Shown piece after piece: positions 1 to 43,950 of a stretch of 64,000 bases of DNA (positions within the stretch are counted from its first letter, which is position 1; each line of letters opens with the position of its first letter). The position numbers and the translations under genes were made by a program. The DNA lies in NCBI RefSeq assembly GCF_910592395.1, contig NC_088308.1, positions 1,736,001 to 1,800,000 of the forward strand. Reading direction: 5' to 3'. This DNA is from Lineus longissimus (taxonomy: Eukaryota; Nemertea; Pilidiophora; Heteronemertea; Lineidae). The notes beneath the pieces are model-generated. The model was not told the origin of the DNA, made no database searches, and was given only the letters and a program-made list of their open reading frames with translations.

Positions 1-152
1 GTCGTGCTGAGAAGATAGTGAAAGAGAATTACAAGTTACTACCAGTTATCAAAGAATATCTGACCGAGTCGATCACTATCGACATTGTTGTCAAAGTAAA
101 GAGAAATATTTAACTCAACATGCTTCTAGATATTTTTATGTCAATATTTCAG

Positions 153-3100
153 CATGTGGTGTAGGCTTCAGATGGAAAAAGGGAAAATGCCGCTGTAAGT
201 TGTGTACTAACCTAGAAATCAAACACCTCAGATCCAAAAAAAACCTAACTGGTAATGCAGCCACCTGGCCCAAACTCTTGACTTTTCGAAATAAAGAATT
301 GATAATGCGGGTGAGGTAACAACAAGAGCATGTTTGGTTTCCTCAAAGGGTACTACAGCACCTAAAGACCCTTTGGCCTAAACAGTTAGCTACATTTACT
401 TTGCCAGTAGAAAAAAAGAAGTCTTGCTGACTGAACAAGCTCGACCTTATTTTCTGATTGTCTTTCACTTTGTAGTCTACAAATGCCCATCTGGTTATAA
501 AAAAGTTCGGACTGGCATATTGAGACGGAGGACAGTCTGCAGGAAAAAAGGTGCGTTTGATTTTATTTTTTCTCTTCGACGTATTTCGCAAGCTTCTTAG
601 ATTTACTTTACCTCCATTTTCATTTAGGAATGTTCAGAGAGGACTAAGGGCCGGGCCATGTCCACAGCCACTGTTATATTTCGTCTTTCCACTGCTGCTG
701 TGTATCACCCACACATGTTATTATAGTCTCAAGATTCTAGGATACAGTCGCAAGAAAATGTTATCTGTCGTGCTGAGAAGATAGTGAAAGAGAATTACAA
801 GTTACTACCAGTTATCAAAGAATATCTGACCGAGTCGATCACTATCGACATTTGTTGTCAGAGTAAAGACAAAGATTTAACTCAACAGGCTTCTACAAAT
901 TTCTATGTCAATATTTCAGCATGTGGTGTGGGCTACAGACGGAAAAAAGGAAAATGCCGCTGTAAGTTGTGTACTAACCAAGAAATAAAGCACTTCAGAT
1001 CAAAACAAACCTAACTGGAAATACAGACACCTGGCTGAAACTCTTGACTTTTCGAAATAAAGAATTGATAATGCGGGTGAGGTAACAACAAGAGCATGGT
1101 TGGTTTCCTAAAAGGGTACTACAGCACCTAAAGACCCTTTGGCCTAAACAGTTAGCTACATTTACTTTGCCAGTAGAAAAAAAGAAGTCTTGCTGACTGA
1201 ACAAGCTCGACCTTATTTTCTGATTGTCTTTCACTTTGTAGTCTACAAATGCCCATCTGGTTATAAAAAAGTTCGGACTGGCATATGGAGACGGAGGACA
1301 ATCTGCAGGAAAAAAGGTGCGTTTAATTTTATTTTTTCTCTTTGAATTTCTTCCCATGCTTCATAGATTCGTTTTACCTCCATTTTCATTTAGTAAAAAT
1401 ATTCTCTGGTCTGCTTAGAACAAAGTGAAAGGGAATTGACAGTTACTACCAGTAATCAATGTATATCTGACCGAGTCAATCACTATCGACATTGTTGTCA
1501 GAGTAAAGAGAAAGATTTAACTCAACATGCTTCTAGATATTTTTATGTCAATATTTCAGCATGTGGTGTAGGCTACAGATGGAAAAAGGGAAAATGCCGC
1601 TGTAAGTTGTATACTAATCTAGAAATCAAACACCTCTGATCCAAAAAAAACCTAACTGGTAATGCAGCCACCTGGCCCAAACTCTTGACTTTTCGAAATA
1701 AAGAATTGATAATGCGGGTGAGGTAACAACAAGAGCATGTTTGGTTTCCTAAAAGGGTCCTACAGCACCTAAAGTCCATTTGGCCTAAACAGTTAGCTAC
1801 ATTTACTTTGCCAGTAGAAAAAAAGAAGTCTTGCTGACTGAACAAGCTCGACCTTATTTTCTGATTGTCTTTCACTTTGTAGTCTACAAATGCCCATCTG
1901 GTTATAAAAAAGTTCGGACTGGCATATGGAGACGGAGGACAATCTGCAGGAAAAAAGGTGCGTTTGATTTTATTTTTTCTCTTTGAATTTCTTCCCATGC
2001 TTCATAGATTCGTTTTACCTACATTTTCATTTAGTAAAAATGTTCTCTGGCCTGCTTAGAAGAAAGGGAAAGGGAATTGACAGTTACTACCAGTAATCAA
2101 TGTATATCTGACCGAGTCGATCACTATCGACATTTGTTGTCAGAGTAAAGACAAAGATTTAACTCAACAGGCTTCTACAAATTTCTATATAAATATTTCA
2201 GCATGTGGTGTGGGCTACAGATGGAAAAAAGGAAAATGCCGCTGTAAGTTGTGTACTAACCAAGAAATAAAGCACTTCAGATCAAAACAAACCTAACTGG
2301 AAATACAGACACCTGGCTGAAACTCTTGACTTTTCGAAATAAAGAATTGATAATGCGGGTGAGGTAACAACAAGAGCATGGTTGGTTTCCTAAAAGGGTA
2401 CTACAGCACCTAAAGACCCTTTGGCCTAAACAGTTAGCTACATTTACTTTGCCAGTAGAAAAAAAGAAGTCTTGCTGACTGAAAAAGCTCGACCTTATTT
2501 TCTGATTGTCTTTCACTTTGTAGTCTACAAATGCCCATCTGGTTATAAAAAAGTTCGGACTGGCATATTGAGACGGAGGACAGTCTGCAGGAAAAAAGGT
2601 GCGTTTGATTTTATTTTTTCTCTTCGACGTATTTCGCAAGCTTCTTAGATTTACTTTACCTCCATTTTCATTTAGGAATGTTCAGAGAGGACTAAGGGCC
2701 GGGCCATGTCCACAGCCACTGTTATATTTCGTCTTTCCACTGCTGCTGTGTATCACCCACACATGTTATTATAGTCTCAAGATTCTAGGATACAGTCTCA
2801 AGAAAATGTTATCTGTCGTGCTGAGAAGATAGTGAAAGAGAATTACAAGTTACTACCAGTTATCAAAGAATATCTGACCGAGTCGATCACTATCGACATT
2901 GTTGTCAGAGTAAAGAGAAAGATTTAACTCAACATGCTTCTAGATATTTTTATGTCAATATTTCAGCATGTGGTGTAGGCTACAGATGGAAAAAGGGAAA
3001 ATGCCGCTGTAAGTTGTGTACTAACCTAGAAATCAAACACCTCAGATTCAAAAAAAACCTAACTGGTAATGCAGCCACCTGGCCCAAACTCTTGACTTTT

Positions 3101-6100
3101 CGAAATAAAGAATTGATAATGCGGGTGAGGTAACAACAAGAGCATGTTTGGTTTCCTAAAAGGGTACTACAGCACCTAAAGACCCTTTGGCCTAAACAGT
3201 TAGCTACATTTACTTTGCCAGTAGAAAAAAAGAAGTCTTGCTGACTGAACAAGCTCGACCTTATTTTCTGATTGTCTTTCACTTTGTAGTCTACAAATGC
3301 CCATCTGGTTATAAAAAAGTTCGGACTGGCATATTGAGACGGAGGACAGTCTGCAGGAAAAAAGGTGCGTTTGATTTTATTTTTTCTCTTCGACGTATTT
3401 CGCAAGCTTCTTAGATTTTCTTTACCTCCATTTTCATTTAGGAATGTTCAGAGAGGACTAAGGGCCGGGCCATGTCCACAGCCACTGTTATATTTCGTCT
3501 TTCCACTGCTGCTGTGTATCACCCACACATGTTATTATAGTCTCAAGATTCTAGGATACAGTCGCAAGAAAATGTTATCTGTCGTGCTGAGAAGATAGTG
3601 AAAGAGAATTACAAGTTAATACCAGTTATCAAAGAATATCTGACCGAGTCGATCACTATCGACATTGTTGTCAGAGTAAAGAGAAAGATTTAACTCAACA
3701 TGCTTCTAGATATTTTTATGTCAATATTTCAGCATGTGGTGTAGGCTACAGATGGAAAAAGGGAAAATGCCGCTGTAAGTTGTGTACTAACCTAGAAATC
3801 AAACACCTCAGATCCAAAAAAAAACTAACTGGTAATGCAGCCACCTGGCCCAAACTCTTGACTTTTCGAAATAAAGAATTGATAATGCGGGTGAGGTAAC
3901 AACAAGAGCATGTTTGGTTTCCTAAAAGGGTACTACAGCACCTAAAGACCCTTTGGCCTAAACAGTTAGCTACATTTACTTTGCCAGTAGAAAAAAAGAA
4001 GTCTTGCTGACTGAACAAGCTCGACCTTATTTTCTGATTGTCTTTCACTTTGTAGTCTACAAATGCCCATCTGGTTATAAAAAAGTTCGGACTGGCATAT
4101 TGAGACGGAGGACAGTCTGCAGGAAAAAAGGTGCGTTTGATTTTATTTTTTCTCTTCGACGTATTTCGCAAGCTTCTTAGATTTTCTTTACCTCCATTTT
4201 CATTTAGGAATGTTCAGAGAGGACTAAGGGCCGGGCCATGTCCACAGCCACTGTTATATTTCGTCTTTCCACTGCTGCTGTGTATCACCCACACATGTTA
4301 TTATAGTCTCAAGATTCTAGGATACAGTCGCAAGAAAATGTTATCTGTCGTGCTGAGAAGATAGTGAAAGAGAATTACAAGTTAATACCAGTTATCAAAG
4401 AATATCTGACCGAGTCGATCACTATCGACATTGTTGTCAGAGTAAAGAGAAAGATTTAACTCAACATGCTTCTAGATATTTTTATGTCAATATTTCAGCA
4501 TGTGGTGTAGGCTACAGATGGAAAAAGGGAAAATGCCGCTGTAAGTTGTGTACTAACCTAGAAATCAAACACCTCAGATCCAAAAAAAAACTAACTGGTA
4601 ATGCAGCCACCTGGCCCAAACTCTTGACTTTTCGAAATAAAGAATTGATAATGCGGGTGAGGTAACAACAAGAGCATGTTTGGTTTCCTAAAAGGGTACT
4701 ACAGCACCTAAAGACCCTTTGGCCTAAACAGTTAGCTACATTTACTTTGCCAGTAGAAAAAAAGAAGTCTTGCTGACTGAACAAGCTCGACCTTATTTTC
4801 TGATTGTCTTTCACTTTGTAGTCTACAAATGCCCATCTGGTTATAAAAAAGTTCGGACTGGCATATTGAGACGGAGGACAGTCTGCAGGAAAAAAGGTGC
4901 GTTTGATTTTATTTTTTCTCTTCGACGTATTTCGCAAGCTTCTTAGATTTACTTTACCTCCATTTTCATTTAGGAATGTTCAGAGAGGACTAAGGGCCGG
5001 GCCATGTCCACAGCCACTGTTATATTTCGTCTTTCCACTGCTGCTGTGTATCACCCACACATGTTATTATAGTCTCAAGATTCTAGGATACAGTCGCAAG
5101 AAAATGTTATCTGTCGTGCTGAGAAGATAGTGAAAGAGAATTACAAGTTACTACCAGTTATCAAAGAATATCTGACCGAGTCGATCACTATCGACATTGT
5201 TGTCAGAGTAAAGAGAAAGATTTAACTCAACATGCTTCTAGATATTTTTATGTCAATATTTCAGCATGTGGTGTAGGCTACAGATGGAAAAAGGGAAAAT
5301 GCCGCTGTAAGTTGTGTACTAACCTAGAAATCAAACACCTCAGATCCAAAAAAAACCTAACTGGTAATGCAGCCACCTGGCCCAAACTCTTGACTTTTCG
5401 AAATAAAGAATTGATAATGCGGGTGAGGTAACAACAAGAGCATGATTGGTTTCCTAAAAGGGTACTACAGCACCTAAAGACCCTTTGGCCTAAACAGTTA
5501 GCTACATTTACTTTGCCAGTAGAAAAAAAGAAGTCTTGCTGACTGAACAAGCTCGACCTTATTTTCTGATTGTCTTTCACTTTGTAGTCTACAAATGCCC
5601 ATCTGGTTATAAAAAAGTTCGGACTGGCATATTGAGACGGAGGACAGTCTGCAGGAAAAAAGGTGCGTTTGATTTTATTTTTTCTCTTCGACGTATTTCG
5701 CAAGCTTCTTAGATTTACTTTACCTCCATTTTCATTTAGGAATGTTCAGAGAGGACTAAGGGCCGGGCCATGTCCACAGCCACTGTTATATTTCGTCTTT
5801 CCACTGCTGCTGTGTATCACCCACACATGTTATTATAGTCTCAAGATTCTAGGATACAGTCGCAAGAAAATGTTATCTGTCGTGCTGAGAAGATAGTGAA
5901 AGAGAATTACAAGTTACTACCAGTTATCAAAGAATATCTGACCGAGTCGATCACTATCGACATTGTTGTCAGAGTAAAGAGAAAGATTTAACTCAACATG
6001 CTTCTAGATATTTTTATGTCAATATTTCAGCATGTGGTGTAGGCTACAGATGGAAAAAGGGAAAATGCCGCTGTAAGTTGTGTACTAACCTAGAAATCAA

Positions 6101-9100
6101 ACACCTCAGATCCAAAAAAAACCTAACTGGTAATGCAGCCACCTGGCCCAAACTCTTGACTTTTCGAAATAAAGAATTGATAATGCGGGTGAGGTAACAA
6201 CAAGAGCATGTTTGGTTTCCTAAAAGGGTACTACAGCACCTAAAGACCCTTTGGCCTAAACAGTTAGCTACATTTACTTTGCCAGTAGAAAAAAAGAAGT
6301 CTTGCTGACTGAACAAGCTCGACCTTATTTTCTGATTGTCTTTCACTTTGTAGTCTACAAATGCCCATCTGGTTATAAAAAAGTTCGGACTGGCATATTG
6401 AGACGGAGGACAGTCTGCAGGAAAAAAGGTGCGTTTGATTTTATTTTTTCTCTTCGACGTATTTCGCAAGCTTCTTAGATTTACTTTACCTCCATTTTCA
6501 TTTAGGAATGTTCAGAGAGGACTAAGGGCCGGGCCATGTCCACAGCCACTGTTATATTTCGTCTTTCCACTGCTGGTGTGTATCACCCACACATGTTATT
6601 ATAGTCTCAAGATTCTAGGATACAGTCGCAAGAAAATGTTATCTGTCGTGCTGAGAAGATAGTGAAAGAGAATTACAAGTTACTACCAGTTATCAAAGAA
6701 TATCTGACCGAGTCGATCACTATCGACATTGTTGTCAGAGTAAAGAGAAAGATTTAACTCAACATGCTTCTAGATATTTTTATGTCAATATTTCAGCATG
6801 TGGTGTAGGCTACAGATGGAAAAAGGGAAAATGCCGCTGTAAGTTGTGTACTAACCTAGAAATCAAACACCTCAGATCCAAAAAAAACCTAACTGGTAAT
6901 GCAGCCACCTGGCCCAAACTCTTGACTTTTCGAAATAAAGAATTGATAATGCGGGTGAGGTAACAACAAGAGCATGTTTGGTTTCCTAAAAGGGTACTAC
7001 AGCACCTAAAGACCCTTTGGCCTAAACAGTTAGCTACATTTACTTTGCCAGTAGAAAAAAAGAAGTCTTGCTGACTGAAAAAGCTCGACCTTATTTTCTG
7101 ATTGTCTTTCACTTTGTAGTCTACAAATGCCCATCTGGTTATAAAAAAGTTCGGACTGGCATATTGAGACGGAGGACAGTCTGCAGGAAAAAAGGTGCGT
7201 TTGATTTTATTTTTTCTCTTCGACGTATTTCGCAAGCTTCTTAGATTTACTTTACCTCCATTTTCATTTAGGAATGTTCAGAGAGGACTAAGGGCCGGGC
7301 CATGTCCACAGCCACTGTTATATTTCGTCTTTCCACTGCTGCTGTGTATCACCCACACATGTTATTATAGTCTCAAGATTCTAGGATACAGTCGCAAGAA
7401 AATGTTATCTGTCGTGCTGAGAAGATAGTGAAAGAGAATTACAAGTTACTACCAGTTATCAAAGAATATCTGACCGAGTCGATCACTATCGACATTGTTG
7501 TCAGAGTAAAGAGAAAGATTTAACTCAACATGCTTCTAGATATTTTTATGTCAATATTTCAGCATGTGGTGTAGGCTACAGATGGAAAAAGGGAAAATGC
7601 CGCTGTAAGTTGTGTACTAACCTAGAAATCAAACACCTCAGATCCAAAAAAAACCTAACTGGTAATGCAGCCACCTGGCCCAAACTCTTGACTTTTCGAA
7701 ATAAAGAATTGATAATGCGGGTGAGGTAACAACAAGAGCATGTTTGGTTTCCTAAAAGGGTACTACAGCACCTAAAGACCCTTTGGCCTAAACAGTTAGC
7801 TACATTTACTTTGCCAGTAGAAAAAAAGAAGTCTTGCTGACTGAACAAGCTCGACCTTATTTTCTGATTGTCTTTCACTTTGTAGTCTACAAATGCCCAT
7901 CTGGTTATAAAAAAGTTCGGACTGGCATATGGAGACGGAGGACAATCTGCAGGAAAAAAGGTGCGTTTGATTTTATTTTTTCTCTTTGAATTTCTTCCCA
8001 TGCTTCATAGATTCGTTTTACCTACATTTTCATTAAGTAAAAATGTTCTCTGGCCTGCTTAGAAGAAAGGGAAAGGGAATTGACAGTTACTACCAGTAAT
8101 CAATGTATATCTGACCGAGTCGATCACTATCGACATTTGTTGTCAGAGTAAAGACAAAGATTTAACTCAACAGGCTTCTACAAATTTCTATGTCAATATT
8201 TCAGCATGTGGTGTGGGCTACAGATGGAAAAAAGGAAAATGCCGCTGTAAGTTGTGTACTAACCAAGAAATAAAGCACTTCAGATCAAAACAAACCTAAC
8301 TGGAAATACAGACACCTGGCTGAAACTCTTGACTTTTCGAAATAAAGAATTGATAATGCGGGTGAGGTAACAACAAGAGCATGTTTGGTTTCCTAAAAGG
8401 GTACTACAGCACCTAAAGACCCTTTGGCCTAAACAGTTAGCTACATTTACTTTGCCAGTAGAAAAAAAGAAGTCTTGCTGACTGAACAAGCTCGACCTTA
8501 TTTTCTGATTGTCTTTCACTTTGTAGTCTACAAATGCCCATCTGGTTATAAAAAAGTTCGGACTGGCATATTGAGACGGAGGACAGTCTGCAGAAAAAAA
8601 AAAGGTGCGTTTGATTTTATTTTTTCTCTTCGACGTATTTCGCAAGCTTCTTAGATTTACTTTACCTCCATTTTCATTTAGGAATGTTCAGAGAGGACTA
8701 AGGGCCGGGCCATGTCCACAGCCACTGTTATATTTCGTCTTTCCACTGCTGCTGTGTATCACCCACACATGTTATTATAGTCTCAAGATTCTAGGATACA
8801 GTCGCAAGAAAATGTTATCTGTCGTGCTGAGAAGATAGTGAAAGAGAATTACAAGTTACTACCAGTTATCAAAGAATATCTGACCGAGTCGATCACTATC
8901 GACATTGTTGTCAGAGTAAAGAGAAAGATTTAACTCAACATGCTTCTAGATATTTTTATGTCAATATTTCAGCATGTGGTGTAGGCTACAGATGGAAAAA
9001 GGGAAAATGCCGCTGTAAGTTGTGTACTAACCTAGAAATCAAACACCTCAGATCCAAAAAAAACCTAACTGGTAATGCAGCCACCTGGCCCAAACTCTTG

Positions 9101-12100
9101 ACTTTTCGAAATAAAGAATTGATAATGCGGGTGAGGTAACAACAAGAGCATGTTTGGTTTCCTAAAAGGGTACTACAGCACCTAAAGACCCTTTGGCCTA
9201 AACAGTTAGCTACATTTACTTTGCCAGTAGAAAAAAAGAAGTCTTGCTGACTGAAAAAGCTCGACCTTATTTTCTGATTGTCTTTCACTTTGTAGTCTAC
9301 AAATGCCCATCTGGTTATAAAAAAGTTCGGACTGGCATATTGAGACGGAGGACAATCTGCAGGAAAAAAAAAGGTGCGTTTGATTTTATTTTTTCTCTTC
9401 GACGTATTTCGCAAGCTTCTTAGATTTACTTTACCTCCATTTTCATTTAGGAATGTTCAGAGAGGACTAAGGGCCGGGCCATGTCCACAGCCACTGTTAT
9501 ATTTCGTCTTTCCACTGCTGCTGTGTATCACCCACACATGTTATTATAGTCTCAAGATTCTAGGATACAGTCGCAAGAAAATGTTATCTGTCGTGCTGAG
9601 AAGATAGTGAAAGAGAATTACAAGTTACTACCAGTTATCAAAGAATATCTGACCGAGTCGATCACTATCGACATTGTTGTCAGAGTAAAGAGAAAGATTT
9701 AACTCAACATGCTTCTAGATATTTTTATGTCAATATTTCAGCATGTGGTGTAGGCTACAGATGGAAAAAGGGAAAATGCCGCTGTAAGTTGTGTACTAAC
9801 CTAGAAATCAAACACCTCAGATCCAAAAAAAATCTAACTGGTAATGCAGCCACCTGGCCCAAACTCTTGACTTTTCGAAATAAAGAATTGATAATGCGGG
9901 TGAGGTAACAACAAGAACATGTTTGGTTTCCTAAAAGGGTACTACAGGACCTAAAGACCCTTTGGCCTAAACAGTTAGCTACATTTACTTTGCCAGTAGA
10001 AAAAAAGAAGTCTTGCTGACTGAACAAGCTCGACCTTATTTTCTGATTGTCTTTCACTTTGTAGTCTACAAATGCCCATCTGGTTATAAAAAAGTTCGGA
10101 CTGGCATATTGAGACGGAGGACAGTCTGCAGGAAAAAAGGTGCGTTTGATTTTATTTTTTCTCTTCGACGTATTTCGCAAGCTTCTTAGATTTACTTTAC
10201 CTCCATTTTCATTTAGGAATGTTCAGAGAGGACTAAGGGCCGGGCCATGTCCACAGCCACTGTTATATTTCGTCTTTCCACTGCTGCTGTGTATCACCGA
10301 CACATGTTATTATAGTCTCAAGATTCTAGGATACAGTCGCAAGAAAATGTTATCTGTCGTGCTGAGAAGATAGTGAAAGAGAATTACAAGTTACTACCAG
10401 TTATCAAAGAATATCTGACCGAGTCGATCACTATCGACATTGTTGTCAGAGTAAAGAGAAAGATTTAACTCAACATGCTTCTAGATATTTTTATGTCAAT
10501 ATTTCAGCATGTGGTGTAGGCTACAGATGGAAAAAGGGAAAATGCCGCTGTAAGTTGTGTACTAACCTAGAAATCAAACACCTCAGATCCAAAAAAAACC
10601 TAACTGGTAATGCAGCCACCTGGCCCAAACTCTTGACTTTTCGAAATAAAGAATTGATAATGCGGGTGAGGTAACAACAAGAGCATGTTTGGTTTCCTAA
10701 AAGGGTACTACAGCACCTAAAGACCCTTTGGCCTAAACAGTTAGCTACATTTACTTTGCCAGTAGAAAAAAAGAAGTCTTGCTGACTGAAAAAGCTCGAC
10801 CTTATTTTCTGATTGTCTTTCACTTTGTAGTCTACAAATGCCCATCTGGTTATAAAAAAGTTCGGACTGGCATATTGAGACGGAGGACAGTCTGCAGGAA
10901 AAAAGGTGCGTTTGATTTTATTTTTTCTCTTCGACGTATTTCGCAAGCTTCTTAGATTTACTTTACCTCCATTTTCATTTAGGAATGTTCAGAGAGGACT
11001 AAGGGCCGGGCCATGTCCACAGCCACTGTTATATTTCGTCTTTCCACTGCTGCTGTGTATCACCGACACATGTTATTATAGTCTCAAGATTCTAGGATAC
11101 AGTCGCAAGAAAATGTTATCTGTCGTGCTGAGAAGATAGTGAAAGAGAATTACAAGTTACTACCAGTTATCAAAGAATATCTGACCGAGTCGATCACTAT
11201 CGACATTGTTGTCAGAGTAAAGAGAAAGATTTAACTCAACATGCTTCTAGATATTTTTATGTCAATATTTCAGCATGTGGTGTAGGCTACAGATGGAAAA
11301 AGGGAAAATGCCGCTGTAAGTTGTGTACTAACCTAGAAATCAAACACCTCAGATCCAAAAAAAACCTAACTGGTAATGCAGCCACCTGGCCCAAACTCTT
11401 GACTTTTCGAAATAAAGAATTGATAATGCGGGTGAGGTAACAACAAGAGCATGTTTGGTTTCCTAAAAGGGTACTACAGCACCTAAAGACCCTTTGGCCT
11501 AAACAGTTAGCTACATTTACTTTGCCAGTAGAAAAAAAGAAGTCTTGCTAACTGAACAAGCTCGACCTTATTTTCTGATTGTCTTTCACTTTGTAGTCTA
11601 CAAATGCCCATCTGGTTATAAAAAAGTTCGGACTGGCATATTGAGACGGAGGACAGTCTGCAGGAAAAAAGGTGCGTTTGATTTTATTTTTTCTCTTCGA
11701 CGTATTTCGCAAGCTTCTTAGATTTACTTTACCTCCATTTTCATTTAGGAATGTTCAGAGAGGACTAAGGGCCGGGCCATGTCCACAGCCACTGTTATAT
11801 TTCGTCTTTCCACTGCTGCTGTGTATCACCCACACATGTTATTATAGTCTCAAGATTCTAGGATACAGTCGCAAGAAAATGTTATCTGTCGTGCTGAGAA
11901 GATAGTGAAAGAGAATTACAAGTTACTACCAGTTATCAAAGAATATCTGACCGAGTCGATCACTATCGACATTGTTGTCAGAGTAAAGAGAAAGATTTAA
12001 CTCAACATGCTTCTAGATATTTTTATGTCAATATTTCAGCATGTGGTGTAGGCTACAGATGGAAAAAGGGAAAATGCCGCTGTAAGTTGTGTACTAACCT

Positions 12101-21100: not shown

Positions 21101-24100
21101 ATTTCAGCATGTGGTGTAGGCTACAGATGGAAAAAGGGAAAATGCCGCTGTAAGTTGTGTACTAACCTAGAAATCAAACACCTCAGATCCAAAAAAAACC
21201 TAACTGGTAATGCAGCCACCTGGCCCAAACTCTTGACTTTTCGAAATAAAGAATTGATAATGCGGGTGAGGTAACAACAAGAGCATGTTTGGTTTCCTAA
21301 AAGGGTACTACAGCACCTAAAGACCCTTTGGCCTAAACAGTTAGCTACATTTACTTTGCCAGTAGAAAAAAAGAAGTCTTGCTGACTGAACAAGCTCGAC
21401 CTTATTTTCTGATTGTCTTTCACTTTGTAGTCTACAAATGCCCATCTGGTTATAAAAAAGTTCGGACTGGCATATTGAGACGGAGGACAGTCTGCAGGAA
21501 AAAAGGTGCGTTTGATTTTATTTTTTCTCTTCGACGTATTTCGCAAGCTTCTTAGATTTACTTTACCTCCATTTTCATTTAGGAATGTTCAGAGAGGACT
21601 AAGGGCCGGGCCATGTCCACAGCCACTGTTATATTTCGTCTTTCCACTGCTGCTGTGTATCACCCACACATGTTATTATAGTCTCAAGATTCTAGGATAC
21701 AGTCGCAAGAAAATGTTATCTGTCGTGCTGAGAAGATAGTGAAAGAGAATTACAAGTTACTACCAGTTATCAAAGAATATCTGACCGAGTCGATCACTAT
21801 CGACATTGTTGTCAGAGTAAAGAGAAAGATTTAACTCAACATGCTTCTAGATATTTTTATGTCAATATTTCAGCATGTGGTGTAGGCTACAGATGGAAAA
21901 AGGGAAAATGCCGCTGTAAGTTGTGTACTAACCTAGAAATCAAACACCTCAGATCCAAAAAAAACCTAACTGGTAATGCAGCCACCTGGCCCAAACTCTT
22001 GACTTTTCGAAATAAAGAATTGATAATGCGGGTGAGGTAACAACAAGAGCATGTTTGGTTTCCTAAAAGGGTACTACAGCACCTAAAGACCCTTTGGCCT
22101 AAACAGTTAGCTACATTTACTTTGCCAGTAGAAAAAAAGAAGTCTTGCTGACTGAAAAAGCTCGACCTTATTTTCTGATTGTCTTTCACTTTGTAGTCTA
22201 CAAATGCCCATCTGGTTATAAAAAAGTTCGGACTGGCATATTGAGACGGAGGACAGTCTGCAGGAAAAAAGGTGCGTTTGATTTTATTTTTTCTCTTCGA
22301 CGTATTTCGCAAGCTTCTTAGATTTACTTTACCTCCATTTTCATTTAGGAATGTTCAGAGAGGACTAAGGGCCGGGCCATGTCCACAGCCACTGTTATAT
22401 TTCGTCTTTCCACTGCTGCTGTGTATCACCCACACATGTTATTATAGTCTCAAGATTCTAGGATACAGTCGCAAGAAAATGTTATCTGTCGTGCTGAGAA
22501 GATAGTGAAAGAGAATTACAAGTTACTACCAGTTATCAAAGAATATCTGACCGAGTCGATCACTATCGACATTGTTGTCAGAGTAAAGAGAAAGATTTAA
22601 CTCAACATGCTTCTAGATATTTTTATGTCAATATTTCAGCATGTGGTGTAGGCTACAGATGGAAAAAGGGAAAATGCCGCTGTAAGTTGTGTACTAACCT
22701 AGAAATCAAACACCTCAGATCCAAAAAAAACCTAACTGGTAATGCAGCCACCTGGCCCAAACTCTTGACTTTTCGAAATAAAGAATTGATAATGCGGGTG
22801 AGGTAACAACAAGAGCATGTTTGGTTTCCTAAAAGGGTACTACAGCACCTAAAGACCCTTTGGCCTAAACAGTTAGCTACATTTACTTTGCCAGTAGAAA
22901 AAAAGGAGTCTTGCTGACTGAACAAGCTCGACCTTATTTTCTGATTGTCTTTCACTTTGTAGTCTACAAATGCCCATCTGGTTATAAAAAAGTTCGGACT
23001 GGCATATTGAGACGGAGGACAGTCTGCAGGAAAAAAGGTGCGTTTGATTTTATTTTTTCTCTTCGACGTATTTCGCAAGCTTCTTAGATTTACTTTACCT
23101 CCATTTTCATTTAGGAATGTTCAGAGAGGACTAAGGGCCGGGCCATGTCCACAGCCACTGTTATATTTCGTCTTTCCACTGCTGCTGTGTATCACCCACA
23201 CATGTTATTATAGTCTCAAGATTCTAGGATACAGTCGCAAGAAAATGTTATCTGTCGTGCTGAGAAGATAGTGAAAGAGAATTACAAGTTACTACCAGTT
23301 ATCAAAGAATATCTGACCGAGTCGATCACTATCGACATTGTTGTCAGAGTAAAGAGAAAGATTTAACTCAACATGCTTCTAGATATTTTTATGTCAATAT
23401 TTCAGCATGTGGTGTAGGCTACAGATGGAAAAAGGGAAAATGCCGCTGTAAGTTGTGTACTAACCTAGAAATCAAACACCTCAGATCCAAAAAAAACCTA
23501 ACTGGTAATGCAGCCACCTGGCCCAAACTCTTGACTTTTCGAAATAAAGAATTGATAATGCGGGTGAGGTAACAACAAGAGCATGTTTGGTTTCCTAAAA
23601 GGGTACTACAGCACCTAAAGACCCTTTGGCCTAAACAGTTAGCTACATTTACTTTGCCAGTAGAAAAAAAGAAGTCTTGCTGACTGAACAAGCTCGACCT
23701 TATTTTCTGATTGTCTTTCACTTTGTAGTCTACAAATGCCCATCTGGTTATAAAAAAGTTCGGACTGGCATATTGAGACGGAGGACAGTCTGCAGGAAAA
23801 AAGGTGCGTTTGATTTTATTTTTTCTCTTCGACGTATTTCGCAAGCTTCTTAGATTTACTTTACCTCCATTTTCATTTAGGAATGTTCAGAGAGGACTAA
23901 GGGCCGGGCCATGTCCACAGCCACTGTTATATTTCGTCTTTCCACTGCTGCTGTGTATCACCCACACATGTTATTATAGTCTCAAGATTCTAGGATACAG
24001 TCGCAAGAAAATGTTATCTGTCGTGCTGAGAAGATAGTGAAAGAGAATTACAAGTTACTACCAGTTATCAAAGAATATCTGACCGAGTCGATCACTATCG

Positions 24101-27100
24101 ACATTGTTGTCAGAGTAAAGAGAAAGATTTAACTCAACATGCTTCTAGATATTTTTATGTCAATATTTCAGCATGTGGTGTAGGCTACAGATGGAAAAAG
24201 GGAAAATGCCGCTGTAAGTTGTGTACTAACCTAGAAATCAAACACCTCAGATCCAAAAAAAACCTAACTGGTAATGCAGCCACCTGGCCCAAACTCTTGA
24301 CTTTTCGAAATAAAGAATTGATAATGCGGGTGAGGTAACAACAAGAGCATGTTTGGTTTCCTAAAAGGGTACTACAGCACCTAAAGACCCTTTGGCCTAA
24401 ACAGTTAGCTACATTTACTTTGCCAGTAGAAAAAAAGAAGTCTTGCTGACTGAACAAGCTCGACCTTATTTTCTGATTGTCTTTCACTTTGTAGTCTACA
24501 AATGCCCATCTGGTTATAAAAAAGTTCGGACTGGCATATTGAGACGGAGGACAGTCTGCAGGAAAAAAGGTGCGTTTGATTTTATTTTTTCTCTTCGACG
24601 TATTTCGCAAGCTTCTTAGATTTACTTTACCTCCATTTTCATTTAGGAATGTTCAGAGAGGACTAAGGGCCGGGCCATGTCCACAGCCACTGTTATATTT
24701 CGTCTTTCCACTGCTGCTTTGTATCACCCACACATGTTATTATAGTCTCAAGATTCTAGGATACAGTCGCAAGAAAATGTTATCTGTCGTGCTGAGAAGA
24801 TAGTGAAAGAGAATTACAAGTTACTACCAGTTATCAAAGAATATCTGACCGAGTCGATCACTATCGACATTGTTGTCAGAGTAAAGAGAAAGATTTAACT
24901 CAACATGCTTCTAGATATTTTTATGTCAATATTTCAGCATGTGGTGTAGGCTACAGATGGAAAAAGGGAAAATGCCGCTGTAAGTTGTGTACTAACCTAG
25001 AAATCAAACACCTCAGATCCAAAAAAAACCTAACTGGTAATGCAGCCACCTGGCCCAAACTCTTGACTTTTCGAAATAAAGAATTGATAATGCGGGTGAG
25101 GTAACAACAAGAGCATGTTTGGTTTCCTAAAAGGGTACTACAGCACCTAAAGACCCTTTGGCCTAAACAGTTAGCTACATTTACTTTGCCAGTAGAAAAA
25201 AAGAAGTCTTGCTGACTGAACAAGCTCGACCTTATTTTCTGATTGTCTTTCACTTTGTAGTCTACAAATGCCCATCTGGTTATAAAAAAGTTCGGACTGG
25301 CATATTGAGACGGAGGACAGTCTGCAGAAAAAAAAAAGGTGCGTTTGATTTTATTTTTTCTCTTCGACGTATTTCGCAAGCTTCTTAGATTTACTTTACC
25401 TCCATTTTCATTTAGGAATGTTCAGAGAGGACTAAGGGCCGGGCCATGTCCACAGCCACTGTTATATTTCGTCTTTCCACTGCTGCTGTGTATCACCCAC
25501 ACATGTTATTATAGTCTCAAGATTCTAGGATACAGTCGCAAGAAAATGTTATCTGTCGTGCTGAGAAGATAGTGAAAGAGAATTACAAGTTACTACCAGT
25601 TATCAAAGAATATCTGACCGAGTCGATCACTATCGACATTGTTGTCAGAGTAAAGAGAAAGATTTAACTCAACATGCTTCTAGATATTTTTATGTCAATA
25701 TTTCAGCATGTGGTGTAGGCTACAGATGGAAAAAGGGAAAATGCCGCTGTAAGTTGTGTACTAACCTAGAAATCAAACACCTCAGATCCAAAAAAAACCT
25801 AACTGGTAATGCAGCCACCTGGCCCAAACTCTTGACTTTTCGAAATAAAGAATTGATAATGCGGGTGAGGTAACAACAAGAGCATGTTTGGTTTCCTAAA
25901 AGGGTACTACAGCACCTAAAGACCCTTTGGCCTAAACAGTTAGCTACATTTACTTTGCCAGTAGAAAAAAAGAAGTCTTGCTGACTGAACAAGCTCGACC
26001 TTATTTTCTGATTGTCTTTCACTTTGTAGTCTACAAATGCCCATCTGGTTATAAAAAAGTTCGGACTGGCATATTGAGACGGAGGACAGTCTGCAGGAAA
26101 AAAGGTGCGTTTGATTTTATTTTTTCTCTTCGACGTATTTCGCAAGCTTCTTAGATTTACTTTACCTCCATTTTCATTTAGGAATGTTCAGAGAGGACTA
26201 AGGGCCGGGCCATGTCCACAGCCACTGTTATATTTCGTCTTTCCACTGCTGCTGTGTATCACCCACACATGTTATTATAGTCTCAAGATTCTAGGATACA
26301 GTCGCAAGAAAATGTTATCTGTCGTGCTGAGAAGATAGTGAAAGAGAATTACAAGTTACTACCAGTTATCAAAGAATATCTGACCGAGTCGATCACTATC
26401 GACATTGTTGTCAGAGTAAAGAGAAAGATTTAACTCAACATGCTTCTAGATATTTTTATGTCAATATTTCAGCATGTGGTGTAGGCTACAGATGGAAAAA
26501 GGGAAAATGCCGCTGTAAGTTGTGTACTAACCTAGAAATCAAACACCTCAGATCCAAAAAAAACCTAACTGGTAATGCAGCCACCTGGCCCAAACTCTTG
26601 ACTTTTCGAAATAAAGAATTGATAATGCGGGTGAGGTAACAACAAGAGCATGTTTGGTTTCCTAAAAGGGTACTACAGCACCTAAAGACCCTTTGGCCTA
26701 AACAGTTAGCTACATTTACTTTGCCAGTAGAAAAAAAGAAGTCTTGCTGACTGAACAAGCTCGACCTTATTTTCTGATTGTCTTTCACTTTGTAGTCTAC
26801 AAATGCCCATCTGGTTATAAAAAAGTTCGGACTGGCATATTGAGACGGAGGACAGTCTGCAGGAAAAAAGGTGCGTTTGATTTTATTTTTTCTCTTCGAC
26901 GTATTTCGCAAGCTTCTTAGATTTACTTTACCTCCATTTTCATTTAGGAATGTTCAGAGAGGACTAAGGGCCGGGCCATGTCCACAGCCACTGTTATATT
27001 TCGTCTTTCCACTGCTGCTGTGTATCACCCACACATGTTATTATAGTCTCAAGATTCTAGGATACAGTCGCAAGAAAATGTTATCTGTCGTGCTGAGAAG

Positions 27101-30100
27101 ATAGTGAAAGAGAATTACAAGTTACTACCAGTTATCAAAGAATATCTGACCGAGTCGATCACTATCGACATTGTTGTCAGAGTAAAGAGAAAGATTTAAC
27201 TCAACATGCTTCTAGATATTTTTATGTCAATATTTCAGCATGTGGTGTAGGCTACAGATGGAAAAAGGGAAAATGCCGCTGTAAGTTGTGTACTAACCTA
27301 GAAATCAAACACCTCAGATCCAAAAAAAACCTAACTGGTAATGCAGCCACCTGGCCCAAACTCTTGACTTTTCGAAATAAAGAATTGATAATGCGGGTGA
27401 GGTAACAACAAGAGCATGTTTGGTTTCCTAAAAGGGTACTACAGCACCTAAAGACCCTTTGGCCTAAACAGTTAGCTACATTTACTTTGCCAGTAGAAAA
27501 AAAGAAGTCTTGCTGACTGAACAAGCTCGACCTTATTTTCTGATTGTCTTTCACTTTGTAGTCTACAAATGCCCATCTGGTTATAAAAAAGTTCGGACTG
27601 GCATATTGAGACGGAGGACAGTCTGCAGAAAAAAAAAAGGTGCGTTTGATTTTATTTTTTCTCTTCGACGTATTTCGCAAGCTTCTTAGATTTACTTTAC
27701 CTCCATTTTCATTTAGGAATGTTCAGAGAGGACTAAGGGCCGGGCCATGTCCACAGCCACTGTTATATTTCGTCTTTCCACTGCTGCTGTGTATCACCCA
27801 CACATGTTATTATAGTCTCAAGATTCTAGGATACAGTCGCAAGAAAATGTTATCTGTCGTGCTGAGAAGATAGTGAAAGAGAATTACAAGTTACTACCAG
27901 TTATCAAAGAATATCTGACCGAGTCGATCACTATCGACATTGTTGTCAGAGTAAAGAGAAAGATTTAACTCAACATGCTTCTAGATATTTTTATGTCAAT
28001 ATTTCAGCATGTGGTGTAGGCTACAGATGGAAAAAGGGAAAATGCCGCTGTAAGTTGTGTACTAACCTAGAAATCAAACACCTCAGATCCAAAAAAAACC
28101 TAACTGGTAATGCAGCCACCTGGCCCAAACTCTTGACTTTTCGAAATAAAGAATTGATAATGCGGGTGAGGTAACAACAAGAGCATGTTTGGTTTCCTAA
28201 AAGGGTACTACAGCACCTAAAGACCCTTTGGCCTAAACAGTTAGCTACATTTACTTTGCCAGTAGAAAAAAAGAAGTCTTGCTGACTGAACAAGCTCGAC
28301 CTTATTTTCTGATTGTCTTTCACTTTGTAGTCTACAAATGCCCATCTGGTTATAAAAAAGTTCGGACTGGCATATTGAGACGGAGGACAGTCTGCAGGAA
28401 AAAAGGTGCGTTTGATTTTATTTTTTCTCTTCGACGTATTTCGCAAGCTTCTTAGATTTACTTTACCTCCATTTTCATTTAGGAATGTTCAGAGAGGACT
28501 AAGGGCCGGGCCATGTCCACAGCCACTGTTATATTTCGTCTTTCCACTGCTGCTGTGTATCACCCACACATGTTATTATAGTCTCAAGATTCTAGGATAC
28601 AGTCGCAAGAAAATGTTATCTGTCGTGCTGAGAAGATAGTGAAAGAGAATTACAAGTTACTACCAGTTATCAAAGAATATCTGACCGAGTCGATCACTAT
28701 CGACATTGTTGTCAGAGTAAAGAGAAAGATTTAACTCAACATGCTTCTAGATATTTTTATGTCAATATTTCAGCATGTGGTGTAGGCTACAGATGGAAAA
28801 AGGGAAAATGCCGCTGTAAGTTGTGTACTAACCTAGAAATCAAACACCTCAGATCCAAAAAAAACCTAACTGGTAATGCAGCCACCTGGCCCAAACTCTT
28901 GACTTTTCGAAATAAAGAATTGATAATGCGGGTGAGGTAACAACAAGAGCATGTTTGGTTTCCTAAAAGGGTACTACAGCACCTAAAGACCCTTTGGCCT
29001 AAACAGTTAGCTACATTTACTTTGCCAGTAGAAAAAAAGAAGTCTTGCTGACTGAACAAGCTCGACCTTATTTTCTGATTGTCTTTCACTTTGTAGTCTA
29101 CAAATGCCCATCTGGTTATAAAAAAGTTCGGACTGGCATATTGAGACGGAGGACAGTCTGCAGGAAAAAAGGTGCGTTTGATTTTATTTTTTCTCTTCGA
29201 CGTATTTCGCAAGCTTCTTAGATTTACTTTACCTCCATTTTCATTTAGGAATGTTCAGAGAGGACTAAGGGCCGGGCCATGTCCACAGCCACTGTTATAT
29301 TTCGTCTTTCCACTGCTGCTGTGTATCACCCACACATGTTATTATAGTCTCAAGATTCTAGGATACAGTCGCAAGAAAATGTTATCTGTCGTGCTGAGAA
29401 GATAGTGAAAGAGAATTACAAGTTACTACCAGTTATCAAAGAATATCTGACCGAGTCGATCACTATCGACATTGTTGTCAGAGTAAAGAGAAAGATTTAA
29501 CTCAACATGCTTCTAGATATTTTTATGTCAATATTTCAGCATGTGGTGTAGGCTACAGATGGAAAAAGGGAAAATGCCGCTGTAAGTTGTGTACTAACCT
29601 AGAAATCAAACACCTCAGATCCAAAAAAAACCTAACTGGTAATGCAGCCACCTGGCCCAAACTCTTGACTTTTCGAAATAAAGAATTGATAATGCGGGTG
29701 AGGTAACAACAAGAGCATGTTTGGTTTCCTAAAAGGGTACTACAGCACCTAAAGACCCTTTGGCCTAAACAGTTAGCTACATTTACTTTGCCAGTAGAAA
29801 AAAAGAAGTCTTGCTGACTGAACAAGCTCGACCTTATTTTCTGATTGTCTTTCACTTTGTAGTCTACAAATGCCCATCTGGTTATAAAAAAGTTCGGACT
29901 GGCATATTGAGACGGAGGACAGTCTGCAGAAAAAAAAAAGGTGCGTTTGATTTTATTTTTTCTCTTCGACGTATTTCGCAAGCTTCTTAGATTTACTTTA
30001 CCTCCATTTTCATTTAGGAATGTTCAGAGAGGACTAAGGGCCGGGCCATGTCCACAGCCACTGTTATATTTCGTCTTTCCACTGCTGCTGTGTATCACCC

Positions 30101-30992
30101 ACACATGTTATTATAGTCTCAAGATTCTAGGATACAGTCGCAAGAAAATGTTATCTGTCGTGCTGAGAAGATAGTGAAAGAGAATTACAAGTTACTACCA
30201 GTTATCAAAGAATATCTGACCGAGTCGATCACTATCGACATTGTTGTCAGAGTAAAGAGAAAGATTTAACTCAACATGCTTCTAGATATTTTTATGTCAA
30301 TATTTCAGCATGTGGTGTAGGCTACAGATGGAAAAAGGGAAAATGCCGCTGTAAGTTGTATACTAATCTAGAAATCAAACACCTCTGATCCAAAAAAAAC
30401 CTAACTGGTAATGCAGCCACCTGGCCCAAACTCTTGACTTTTCGAAATAAAGAATTGATAATGCGGGTGAGGTAACAACAAGAGCATGTTTGGTTTCCTA
30501 AAAGGGTCCTACAGCACCTAAAGTCCATTTGGCCTAAACAGTTAGCTACATTTACTTTGCCAGTAGAAAAAAAGAAGTCTTGCTGACTGAACAAGCTCGA
30601 CCTTATTTTCTGATTGTCTTTCACTTTGTAGTCTACAAATGCCCATCTGGTTATAAAAAAGTTCGGACTGGCATATGGAGACGGAGGACAATCTGCAGGA
30701 AAAAAGGTGCGTTTGATTTTATTTTTTCTCTTTAAATTTCTTCCCATGCTTCATAGATTCGTTTTACCTACATTTTCATTTAGTAAAAATGTTCTTTGAC
30801 CTGCTTAGAAGAAAGGGAAAGGGAATCGACAGTTACTACCAGTAATCAATGTATATCTGACCGAGTCGATCACTATCGACATTTGTTGTCAGAGTAAAGA
30901 CAAAGATTTAACTCAACAGGCTTCTACAAATTTCTATGTCAATATTTCAGCATGTGGTGTGGGCTACAGATGGAAAAAAGGAAAATGCCGCT
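153..30992 (+). CDS. Exon A family: 42 copies of a 42-nt mini-exon (CGVGYRWKKGKCRF)
   Basis: Starts are 153, 920, 1560, 2202, 2967, 3733, 4499, 5265, 6031, 6797, 7563, 8205, 8973, 9742, 10508, 11274, 12040, 12682, 13447, 14213, 14979, 15745, 16512, 17278, 18044, 18810, 19576, 20342, 21108, 21874, 22640, 23406, 24172, 24938, 25707, 26473, 27239, 28008, 28774, 29540, 30309 and 30951; each is 42 nt long. The acceptor is tcaatatttcag and the donor is a consensus gtaagt. Phase is 1 on both sides, so any copy can be added or skipped in frame. The peptide has a C-x10-C pair and five Lys/Arg. Variants are few: Phe for Tyr in copy 1 and Arg for Trp in copy 2. There is no transcript evidence here; the call rests on splice sites, phase and cysteine pattern. 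Confidence 0.78.
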
Positions 30993-33900
30993 GTAAGTTG
31001 TGTACTAACCAAGAAATAAAGCACTTCAGATCAAAACAAACCTAACTGGAAATACAGACACCTGGCTGAAACTCTTGACTTTTCGAAATAAAGAATTGAT
31101 CATGTGGGGGGAGGTAAAATACAACAAGGGCATGTTTGGTTTCCTTAAGAGGTATTATTTGCAGCCAAAATCCATTTGGCCTCAGGTACATTTACTTTGC
31201 CAGTAAAAAAATGAGAAATCTTGCTGACTGAAGAAGCTCGACCTTATTTTCTGATTGTCTTTCACTTTCTAGTTTACAAATGCCCATCTGGTTATAAAAA
31301 AGTTCGGATCGGCATATCAAGACGGAGGACAATCTGCAAGAAAAAAGGTGCGTTTGATTTTAATTTCTCTTTGACTTTCTTCCCAAGCTTCATAGATTCG
31401 TTTTACCAACATTTTCATTTAGGAACGTTCATAGAGGACTATTAAGGACTGGGCCGTGTCCACTACCTTTATAATGCGTTTTTGCTATGCTGGTTTATAC
31501 TGCATTCTCGCCTGTCTAATACCCACACTTGCTATAGTCTCAAGATTCTAGGACCCCGTATGAAAATTATTTTTGCAGCACTTGGACGCTGCGTTTGTAG
31601 GGGTGCCGGAGATCCCCATTACAAGACATTTGATGGCCAGACCGTCCATTTCCAGGGCGTGTGCAAGTACCTCCTGTCACAGACGACCAAGCAGATTGAT
31701 AAGTGCTCTTACATTGTTCTCGTTGAGAATGAGTACCGTAAGAATAATCGGGTTTCATATACAAGCTCTGCCGAACTGCAGATGCCCGGCGGCATCAAAA
31801 TAAAACTGGATAAATACTATAACATATACGTAAGTTATGTACGGAGGTTGGGTAAGGACACCCCATGATTCTTTATTTTTAATATAAAACTTTTATTCCA
31901 GTAATATCTCGATCGATGGACTTATTATTATCTCGAGATAAATACTTGAGTTTTTCGATCGCATGAGAAAAACTATTTTCGTGTTAAAGAAAGTCATATG
32001 CTGTCCTTTCCCAGCCACCCCAGTCATACTTTTAGTTATCCTCAAAATAAATACCAATGCTAATCTGCTGTAATATCTAAAGCAGACAAATCAATTTTGC
32101 TTGATCTTGATCTCTGAGGTCCTGACATACTCAATTTGCTTGATTTATATTGATTGCTCTGACCGAAAATGAGATTTTCTACATCTTTTTATTCCTTGTT
32201 TTTATGCAGAAAGACGGAGCAAAGGAGAACTTTCCTCTCGATGCAACCAGTATTAATGGCGTGAACGTAAAGGCTCGTCTCCGTGGGAAAACTATGACGA
32301 TAACTGTGACGGAATGTGGGATTACCCTGACCTACAAAAACAGTCACATGGTTTACCTTAAAGTGGACAGCAAGCGTTATGGTGGTAAAGGAAAGCTTAC
32401 TGGCATGTGCGATGACTGTGACGGAGTTAAAACACCAACGGCAAAGATAGACTTCAACAATTACAGGGTGAATGGGTAGGTTTGATTTCTTTTTCGCTTG
32501 CATTATATAACGAAATCTAATTGATGATTGAGAGAGAATATTAGTCTCAATTTTGAAACTGAATTACAGCGAATGTATGATTTTAACATTTGGAGTTAAA
32601 ATTATCTCTTAAATCATGTTCCCATGACAAACCATATTGGTCGCCGTTTTCACGAAGTGGCCAGGCAACAAAGTTTGAAGTGTTGATGAGAATTGGTCTT
32701 ATGACGAGAACATGTTTACAAAAACCATTTGGTAAAAAATATGTCACGAAATAGGTGCTGACCATAGATAGGTACCACCATTTTGGCTAGCAATTGAAAT
32801 CCTAGAGCACTTAGAAGTTCTTCAAAATAAGTGAATGCCCATTTAAAACATGGTAGGCTGCTCTCTGGGAAACAAGGAACGGACTGCCACCCTTGAAACT
32901 GGCACTCACTTCGTTTTGAAGGAGTTCTAATTGCTTTAAGATTTCAAGTTCCAGCCAAAGTGGCGGTACTTATGGTCAACCCTTAACTTATCGCCATATC
33001 TGGGTCGCCTAGGTGTGGAACGTCGATGGCTATTCGGCTGTGAATAAGTAGAATATAACTTCGGTCACTGGTTGTAAATTTCTAGGGGCCTCTTGGGGTT
33101 TCAGACTTCAAAAACGTTTGGAGTGAACGCCCGAGGTCAAATCCATATGGATCTGTTGTATACAAAGTTGTACATTATATAAATAAGGTACAGCCCATGT
33201 AACCTTCTAGGTGCAAAACTACCTCTGCATCAGCCACAGCCGTCCCAGTCGATGAAAATAATTGCAATATGCCCCCGCCCGACAAGACGAAACATGGCCA
33301 TTGGGCTCAATTGTGTAGACATTTTTTTACGATGGATTACTTGTCCTTTCAGAAACTGTAAAATTGCACCTGCTAATCCAAAATGTCCAAAAACTAAAAA
33401 ACGCATCCTCATGCGAAGCTGCAGCATCATCCAAAAGAAGAATGGACCATTCAAGAACTGTATAAAAAAATTGAACGTATGGAAGGCATCCATCGAGAAC
33501 TGTATCTTCGATTCCTGTGAATTCTTCACACCCGCGAAAACCCGTAGGAGAGCCGTGTGCCAGTCCATTGAGGCTTTTGCGCAGAGATGCAGACAGAATG
33601 GTTTCCCATCTAGCACTCCGTGGAGAAAGAGAAACTTCTGCCGTGAGTCTTTCTCTCAGTCTCACAAACATCTTTGCAATGATTGTTAAAAACGAATAAA
33701 CCAGTGCACAGCACATTGTTAAGTAAGGGTAGTTGTCTCTCTCGTAGTCTTGATGGGGTGGGGAGCACTAAGTCAGTTTTTGTTCCAAATTTGACGGTGA
33801 CAATGCGAGAAAATGAAAAGCTGCCTGAAAAACCTATGTTATACCAGGACGCTTCCACGCCTCTTCCCTAAGCATGAGAGTGAATTTATACTTGAATCCA

Positions 33901-37217: not shown

Positions 37218-37485
37218 GAAAAGAAAACCGGAGAAGTAAATTGTTGTAGACAAATACGAGTTGGAACCTTTTAGATTAGTTATCAGCGAGTCACTCTTTT
37301 AGATACGACTCCAAGTCTTATTAATGTTCACTTATAACAGTAACATTACACGGAGGATGTCTAACGACCATGTTATAACAAGTGTTGGACACACAAACAT
37401 TTCTTGGATTTTCATACGACTAAATGCGTTCTAATACCGTGACTTTTGTCGATTAAAAACTTCCCTGGACAGCATTTATTGATGA

Positions 37486-43725: not shown

Positions 43726-43950
43726 TTAGCTGCTGAGAGTTCTCGAGCTCTTCGACTTGTGCTCGTAGGAGATCTCGACGGATGATCCGCCTGCGCCTAC
43801 CGCTGAGCTGCGTCCAACAGACACGGAACTCCTGTTCTTGGCACGGAGTTTCCCAAGGGCATTCTCAGATGCATCAGCACGCTCCTCGGCCTCTTCAAGT
43901 TCGTGTGTCACCTTACGGAATTTGGCCAAGTTGATGGCAGCAATTTCCTC
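43726..43950 (-). CDS. Mhc: MHC last exon: end of rod and tailpiece
   Basis: It starts [20 protein letters not shown], the conserved end of the myosin rod, and runs into a Ser/Gly-rich tailpiece ([17 protein letters not shown]) ending in TLSS and TAA at 43726-43728. The tailpiece is the region that is phosphorylated and varies between isoforms in molluscan myosins. It is shared by MHC and myorod. Confidence 0.96.

Follow-up and report, generated by a model that had tools for sequence, protein, structure and literature searches.

Tandem arrays of basic cysteine-rich exons in Lineus longissimus probably form the centre of a 190-exon gene for a secreted polycationic protein

The window analysed here, a 64,000-nucleotide stretch of the assembly of the heteronemertean ribbon worm Lineus longissimus (contig C1, positions 1736001-1800000), begins within a tandem array of short paired exons, A and B, and continues through the exons of a VWD domain gene into a myosin gene. 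The original prediction, made from the letters of the window alone, had read the array units as paired exons of one gene running into the VWD domain. Our analysis supported and extended that reading, with a unit-like intron preceding the VWD exon and a signal peptide and further exons in the same phase lying upstream. All units in the window carry both exons (42/42 A exons of 42 nt and 42/42 B exons) with AG/GT sites in phase 1-1, and the two lengths predicted for exon B were recovered, 75 nt in 37/42 units and 78 nt in 5/42. The frame predicted to be open across these 84 exons contains no stop, and the last B exon joins in frame to the first VWD exon (Table 1). The 39-residue repeat was confirmed as the consensus unit ACGVGYRWKKGKCRFYKCPSGYKKVRTGILRRRTVCRKK, with C-x10-C and C-x17-C pairs, 15 K/R and no D/E, as was the spacing of 766 or about 640 bp, which is mostly 766 bp and otherwise 640-642, 765 or 767-769 bp. 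The label "minisatellite" proved to be the wrong term for a unit of 640-769 bp, and the extent given for the array (42 units, positions 1 to 31553) is correct only in that all 42 units lie in the window; the window edge cuts the array, which has 67 units in the genome, a copy number that rests on the assembly of one individual of one species.

The whole A/B array starts with an A exon at C1:1718997 and ends with a 67th unit of 628 bp. Phase 1-1 symmetrical exons in one frame were found in 67/67 units, which would encode 2,617 residues with 1,016 K+R and no D/E. The in-window part (1,642 residues, 636 K+R, no D+E) agrees with the predicted length of over 1,600 residues and net charge of around +600, and the net charge of the whole gene model described below is larger, +1,743. 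Among the 42 in-window units, 31 are distinct, three groups of identical units occur, and pairwise identity has a median of 99.5% and a minimum of 83%. Units of a short-intron class (2, 3, 11, 17 and 41) and units carrying a variant A exon (2, 4, 12, 18 and 42) are both intermingled with the common class, an interspersion that is expected from unequal exchange or conversion. As had been predicted, no named repeat family was found: single modules reach no named family's cut-off in the libraries searched, which were Pfam for all parts of the gene and NCBIfam for the A/B unit, the two C-terminal defensin-like exons and the NCBI protein of this locus (both described below), and the NCBIfam scan gave no relevant match.

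In the 80 kb preceding the window, we found 98 exons before the window edge, consisting of a signal-peptide exon coding MNSSILAAFLLLVLAAWT (called by eye and hydropathy) and 97 more in the same phase. The signal exon is followed by a linker exon, a PAN-like exon, a beta-defensin-like exon (defN) and six diverged short CGxGY...WKC exons, after which comes a second array, lying upstream of the A/B array, of 38 exons of 120 nt coding VCRRKRCRSTRQICRYGRKKVYRNDRRGCRQCYRVCKSKP and variants (the C array). The exon scan and the genome search agree on the count of 38. C exons are spaced 284 bp (22 times) or 332 bp (15 times) apart, and the array has a median identity of 93.7% over 37 aligned repeats. 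A control scan, with the thresholds used when these exons were first detected, gave eight phase-1-1 cysteine-rich exon candidates on the plus strand of the 4.5-kb N zone, no candidate on the opposite strand of that zone, and 20 in 146 kb of flanking sequence with both strands counted. Exons A and CGxGY share CGVGYR (tblastn E 0.046) and may be related, judging by this protein-level likeness; no DNA similarity between them was found. We also observed about 200 bp of CCTAA pentamers in the intron between the PAN-like and defensin-like exons (C1 about 1703690-1703890); CCTAA is the complement of TTAGG, the telomere motif of arthropods.

The whole model comprises 190 exons over 70,820 bp, with a coding sequence of 14,715 nt for 4,904 residues (586 kDa, isoelectric point 11). 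It contains 1,810 K+R, 67 D+E and 571 cysteines, giving a net charge of about +1,743, and the A/B and C arrays account for 84% of the modelled protein. All acceptors are AG (189/189) and 188/189 donors are GT, the one GC donor being required by the NCBI protein as well. From the signal exon through the 67th B exon, all boundaries are in phase 1, and the model is without internal stop. The even cysteine counts of the modules, four in A/B and six in C, suggest that they are closed by disulfides.

Downstream of the array, the model continues into VWD, C8, TIL and EGF-like exons, two beta-defensin-like exons (D1 and D2) and a 17-nt last exon (Table 1). The VWD domain was detected with 57.9 bits (Pfam cut-off 22.9) and 56 bits in another Pfam scan, and C8 (48.8 bits), TIL (29.7 bits) and EGF_3 (28.9 bits) all scored above their Pfam cut-offs; TIL was found also in a longer query and in the NCBI model of the locus. 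The best solved relatives are FCGBP (8rde, 8r0t) and mucins, among them MUC5AC, with GDPH aligned to that of FCGBP. A protein database search, in which a query of six A/B units plus the downstream exons was scored among the 7,990 candidates with most shared words, returned two proteins. One, NCBI "zonadhesin-like [Lineus longissimus]" (412 aa), covered 53% of the query at 100% identity, and the last 412 residues of our model are exactly this protein. It starts at a methionine within the VWD domain and lacks all repeats; since it begins mid-VWD, it is unlikely to be complete. A stop after the EGF exon at 34979 was considered as the gene end and dropped, because the NCBI protein shows the frame going on through a GTTAGT donor. 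The other protein returned, a JGI metagenome protein of 419 aa, has repeated CxxCPxGYKR modules like exon B (29% identity over 30% of the query, E 2.6e-5), a likeness that is possibly convergent.

Table 1. Exons and arrays assigned to the modelled gene within the window (positions counted from the first letter of the window)
Feature	Position	Strand	Remarks
A/B exon array, in-window part (42/67 units; window begins within array)	1..31578	+	each unit, 640-769 bp long, has A (42 nt) and B (75/78 nt); the first A is at 153-194 and the last B at 31273-31347
First exon A in window (CGVGFRWKKGKCR), phase 1-1	153..194	+	
First exon B in window (YKCPSGYKKVRTGILRRRTVCRKK), phase 1-1	476..550	+	
Exon A of last (67th), most diverged unit	30951..30992	+	
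Exon B of last unit; spliced to VWD exon in model	31273..31347	+	
VWD exon 1, contains GDPH	31579..31829	+	
VWD exon 2	32210..32475	+	
C8 domain exon	33353..33642	+	
TIL domain exon	33993..34225	+	
EGF-like exon	34797..34974	+	
Beta-defensin-like exon D1 (C-x6-C-x3-C-x11-C-x5-CC)	35301..35405	+	
Beta-defensin-like exon D2 (C-x6-C-x3-C-x11-C-x3-CC), GC donor	36544..36645	+	
Last exon, 17 nt, stop codon	37201..37217	+	

Beta-defensins have the six-cysteine pattern C-x4-8-C-x3-5-C-x9-13-C-x4-7-CC. The corresponding intervals are 6/3/11/5 in D1, which fits, 6/3/11/3 in D2 and 6/5/8/5 in defN, the latter two each being off this pattern by one residue at one interval. D1 also gave a weak match to 2b5b, "Defensin" (E 0.45). 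Comparison of D1 and D2 with their following introns (window 35301-37413) showed 65% DNA identity between the exons (62/96 sites) and 96% over 90 and 94% over a further 402 sites of the intron. Exon divergence therefore far exceeds that of the following intron, a pattern typical of fast-evolving toxin and defensin families.

Because the 42 units are nearly identical, an open frame alone is little evidence of coding and does not amount to 84 independent observations. We therefore looked at the distribution of changes. Across the A/B units in the window, 15/120 exon columns are variable compared to 139/677 intron columns (p=0.044), and the only exonic one of 14 distinct gap runs among units is 3 nt long and in frame. 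Six marked units were each compared with the consensus for exon versus intron changes. Unit 42, the outlier, departs from it at 9/117 exon and 88/485 intron sites (p=0.005), and its ten indels are confined to introns; units 41 and 3 have significantly fewer exon changes (p about 0.02), and in units 11, 2 and 4 the exon deficit is not significant (p 0.066, 0.23 and 1). In addition, the intron that follows the last B exon shows 71% similarity to the second intron of the units over about 200 bp, so that the VWD exon occupies the place of the next A exon, in the same phase. At the level of sequence, the gene structure is well supported.

Genome searches covered 391,118,348 bases in 30 contigs. The A/B unit is confined to a single locus: of 131 matches (E up to 10), 129 fall in its own array, and the two others, both weak, are on contigs C10 (E 0.054) and C9 (E 0.57). 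A search with D1-D2 (E up to 1) gave three matches, namely both exons themselves and one at E 0.85. The C unit (E up to 1) gave 44 matches, 38 of them its own exons; the remaining six, all weak (E 0.12 to 0.33), lie within 12 kb on contig C13. This last region (C13:5606001-5616000, minus strand) contains phase-1-1 exons of 114-117 nt in a tandem array, adjacent ones being spaced at 458 bp, for example CKEPVCISTKEACPGKRENVYTTNADGCQSCRSVC. The C13 array shows nine tblastn matches to the C module, best E 6e-8, and shares with it the tandem phase 1-1 exons and the identical spacing C-x4-C-x6-C-x14-C-x2-C-x3-C. Unlike the main C module, which has 17 K/R and 1 D/E, the C13 modules have 5-7 K/R and 1-4 D/E. 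Given these near-neutral relatives, the C module seems to have acquired its charge, which would make it a supercharged version of a near-neutral module. The C module was also considered as an antistasin and rejected, Pfam scores being 10.5 bits for two C modules and 12.7 for one C13 relative (cut-off 21.2).

VWD matches were found at 67 places in the genome. The nearest of eight loci compared is on contig C2, with 47% identity over 72 aa. A cluster holding 25/67 of these matches, of similar score and extent, spreads across 1.3 Mb of contig C17 (83728-1360669) and may stem from an independent expansion of a VWD gene in the recent past. The C2 paralogue, read over 10 kb, resembles the gene described here in having phase-1 PAN-like exons leading to a GDPHY VWD, C8 and TIL, and differs from it in that the 10 kb read is without arrays; array units and D1-D2 used as queries had no match there better than E 0.006. 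It has five PAN-like exons, four of which are matched by the PAN exon of this gene (E 1e-10 to 1e-6), and the two scanned scored 19.7 and 19.9 bits for PAN_1, below the cut-off of 21.4. A PAN-VWD-C8-TIL gene with phase-1 borders is thus a plausible ancestor, into which small phase-1-1 exons would have been placed and then amplified. A PDB search with the A/B unit (E up to 10) listed seven chains, the best being R-spondin-2 (E 0.09) and none a nemertean peptide.

Another gene in the window is a muscle-type myosin heavy chain gene on the minus strand (43700-62800). Its exon ESLNKL or SLNKLL...HPHFIRCI(I/V)PNE occurs in three alternative versions, near 60.5, 60.9 and 62.6 kb. Within the gene, at 52672-53397 on the minus strand, an exon with its own methionine encodes a 181-residue non-myosin sequence rich in tyrosine and serine, for which no Pfam match was found. 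Its position is like that of the catchin/myorod start exon of molluscs.

On balance, we think that the A/B array is probably the central part of one 190-exon gene for a secreted polycationic mucus or adhesive protein anchored by its VWD module. The protein would consist, in order, of a signal peptide, PAN-like and beta-defensin-like domains, six CGxGY modules, 38 C modules, 67 A/B modules, VWD-C8-TIL-EGF and two beta-defensin-like domains. The arrays would have entered a PAN-VWD-C8-TIL ancestor between its PAN and VWD exons and would have grown by duplication of phase 1-1 exons with unequal exchange or gene conversion. Gland cells would release the protein into mucus or glue, where the VWD module could anchor or cross-link it. 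In work on MUC2 and FCGBP, GDPH is reportedly a site that cleaves itself and can react with amines, and the array lysines might supply amines for such a reaction. The absence of acidic residues from all 2,617 A/B residues suggests binding to polyanions, so that a polycationic, disulfide-stabilised rod might bind acid mucus glycans, surfaces or bacterial envelopes. The VWD-C8-TIL tail suggests assembly or anchoring, and the defensin-like ends suggest action on microbes. The outcome would be a cationic adhesive or gel former to which an antimicrobial character is tethered.

More tentatively, and as a possibility we would not yet call probable, the product could be a mucin analogue in which a protein polycation replaces the anionic sugar domain. 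Such a protein would be capped by defensin-like domains and assembled through VWD, and its more than 100 disulfide-locked cationic modules, of near-neutral ancestry, would have been supercharged to a net charge of about +1,700. It would be a covalently tethered antimicrobial and adhesive mucus backbone whose length varies between animals as a coding variable number tandem repeat (VNTR). One published finding on nemertean secretions favours the secreted mucus or adhesive protein proposed above: in the congener L. sanguineus, mucus holds a beta-defensin-like protein with homologues across Pilidiophora and in Cephalothrix, which the authors consider as either a toxin or an antimicrobial (PMC10674772). 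VWF- and mucin-like transcripts are elevated in the proboscis according to a second study of nemerteans (PMC9132205). Neither PMC10674772 nor PMC11768458 uses von Willebrand, zonadhesin or mucin in its main text. Among the literature matches listed, no title or abstract opening concerns this protein, a survey too limited for a claim of novelty in print.

Several results weigh against the proposed 190-exon gene for a secreted mucus or adhesive protein. The NCBI zonadhesin-like model omits the arrays, which means that we infer their transcription. Changes in A/B exons comprise 4 synonymous and 8 non-synonymous types, compared to 78:249 possible, and are not clearly purifying; the C array shows no significant deficit of variable columns in exons (24/120) relative to introns (58/212; p=0.15). 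The PAN match is weak (Pfam PAN_1 16.3 bits, cut-off 21.4) and was lost in a 327-residue context. Pfam scans of the longer query and of the NCBI model gave no C8, and EGF_3 fell below cut-off. D1, D2 and defN match no Pfam family, and the structure model of D1 is of low confidence, with a predicted local distance difference test score of 59.4 and a predicted template modelling score of 0.24. Lastly, there is no mucin-type Ser/Thr/Pro region, the arrays having 174 T, 144 S and 105 P in 4,138 residues, about 10%.

One alternative is that the locus is not expressed or is decaying, in which case a short VWD gene would merely have an expanded satellite or expanded pseudo-exons, the arrays, next to it. 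The NCBI model, which starts inside VWD without repeats, would fit this view, as would the small number of independent frame tests that near-identical units offer. Nevertheless, that NCBI start cuts the VWD domain and leaves a phase-1 acceptor exon unpaired, and the model joins 190 intact exons with a signal peptide at the correct end. Since exon columns are also less variable than intron columns, with only a 3-nt exonic indel, and the intron before VWD resembles a unit intron, we regard this alternative as very improbable. It is also conceivable, though unlikely, that the gene is real and its copy number over- or under-assembled. Units with a median identity of 99.5%, including three sets of identical copies, are difficult to resolve with 10-20-kb reads. 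Set against this are the 31/42 distinct units and the interspersed length classes, and the data themselves: the published 391-Mb genome was built from HiFi reads at 79-fold with Hifiasm (PMC8593623).

Two further alternatives concern the product. The arrays might encode a polyprotein precursor, with the VWD end a mere carrier, whose units are cut after secretion into cationic antimicrobial or toxic peptides of ~39-40 residues. A/B units end in RKK/KK before the next A, a possible dibasic site, and their size and two-disulfide make-up recall effector peptides; small peptides with disulfides abound in the mucus of L. longissimus (PMC5864730). However, A/B units are equally basic inside (WKKGK, YKKV, RRRT), so that such sites are not restricted to borders, C unit borders (KSKP-G/V-C) have no dibasic site, and acidic spacers are absent. 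The masses of the three prominent mucus peptides named in PMC5864730 (3308, 3260 and 6419) also differ from the mass of 4635 computed per A/B unit, and we consider processing into peptides quite unlikely. A purely structural role, in which the arrays form a cohesive or adhesive polycationic backbone as in polyelectrolyte cements with no antimicrobial function, is doubtful but deserves more weight. It would account for the extreme composition of the A/B array, without a single Asp or Glu in its whole length, for the homogenisation of the array and for the VWD-C8-TIL-EGF tail, which many marine adhesive proteins have; the three domains in the same gene that are beta-defensin-like by cysteine pattern argue against it.

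If translated, the protein we favour, a secreted polycation with a VWD anchor, would to our knowledge be among the most positively charged proteins known. It would mean that mucus or glue can rest on a giant protein polycation instead of an anionic glycan brush, and could account for part of the properties of nemertean slime. The NCBI protein lacks 4,492/4,904 modelled residues, so mucus proteomics against that protein alone is blind to them. By calculation, trypsin would cut the consensus A/B unit into pieces of no more than 7 residues and the C unit into pieces of no more than 5, and Glu-C would leave the A/B array uncut. At this locus two coding exon arrays would also stand side by side with homogenisation advanced to different degrees, and the genome supplies for comparison both a paralogue free of repeats and, for one module, a near-neutral relative.

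Compared to known systems, the predicted gene product belongs to the broad VWD-C8-TIL class. Like FCGBP, zonadhesin and gel-forming mucin assemblies, it has VWD, C8 and TIL in order with GDPH at the VWD start. Unlike them, it has a single VWD assembly (one VWD, and GDPH once in the 190-exon model), lacks a Ser/Thr/Pro mucin region and consists, over 84% of its length, of two polycationic cysteine-rich arrays; by the features tested, it would not be a gel-forming mucin. D1, and approximately D2 and defN, resemble beta- and big defensins in having a GGxC motif and CC at the end of the cysteine pattern, whereas A/B units have four cysteines only and not six ending in CC. A single A/B unit scored 18.3 bits against Defensin_beta (cut-off 21; 19/39 residues aligned) and 0/10 cysteine-fixed shuffles matched, which together make a remote link to beta-defensins possible. 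Tandem units pass the cut-off by adding copies (27.5 bits for three, 39.4 for five). Reading the A/B unit as a beta-defensin minus two cysteines is attractive, since its last cysteine sits at the sixth's place, but the match is a sub-threshold one of 19 residues and the reading is no more than a lead. In being very basic, repetitive and secreted, the predicted protein is like the polycationic cements of tube worms and repetitive marine adhesives, and differs from them in its cysteine-paired modules on separate exons and its VWD tail. In architecture, all 67/67 units have the exon-pair form of a coding VNTR of the LPA KIV-2 type. As in kringle IV-2 of apolipoprotein(a), a homogenised kilobase-scale tandem unit adds an exon pair to a secreted protein; there the 5.5-kb unit encodes a kringle of ordinary charge, whereas here two unrelated arrays are built of tiny basic exons.

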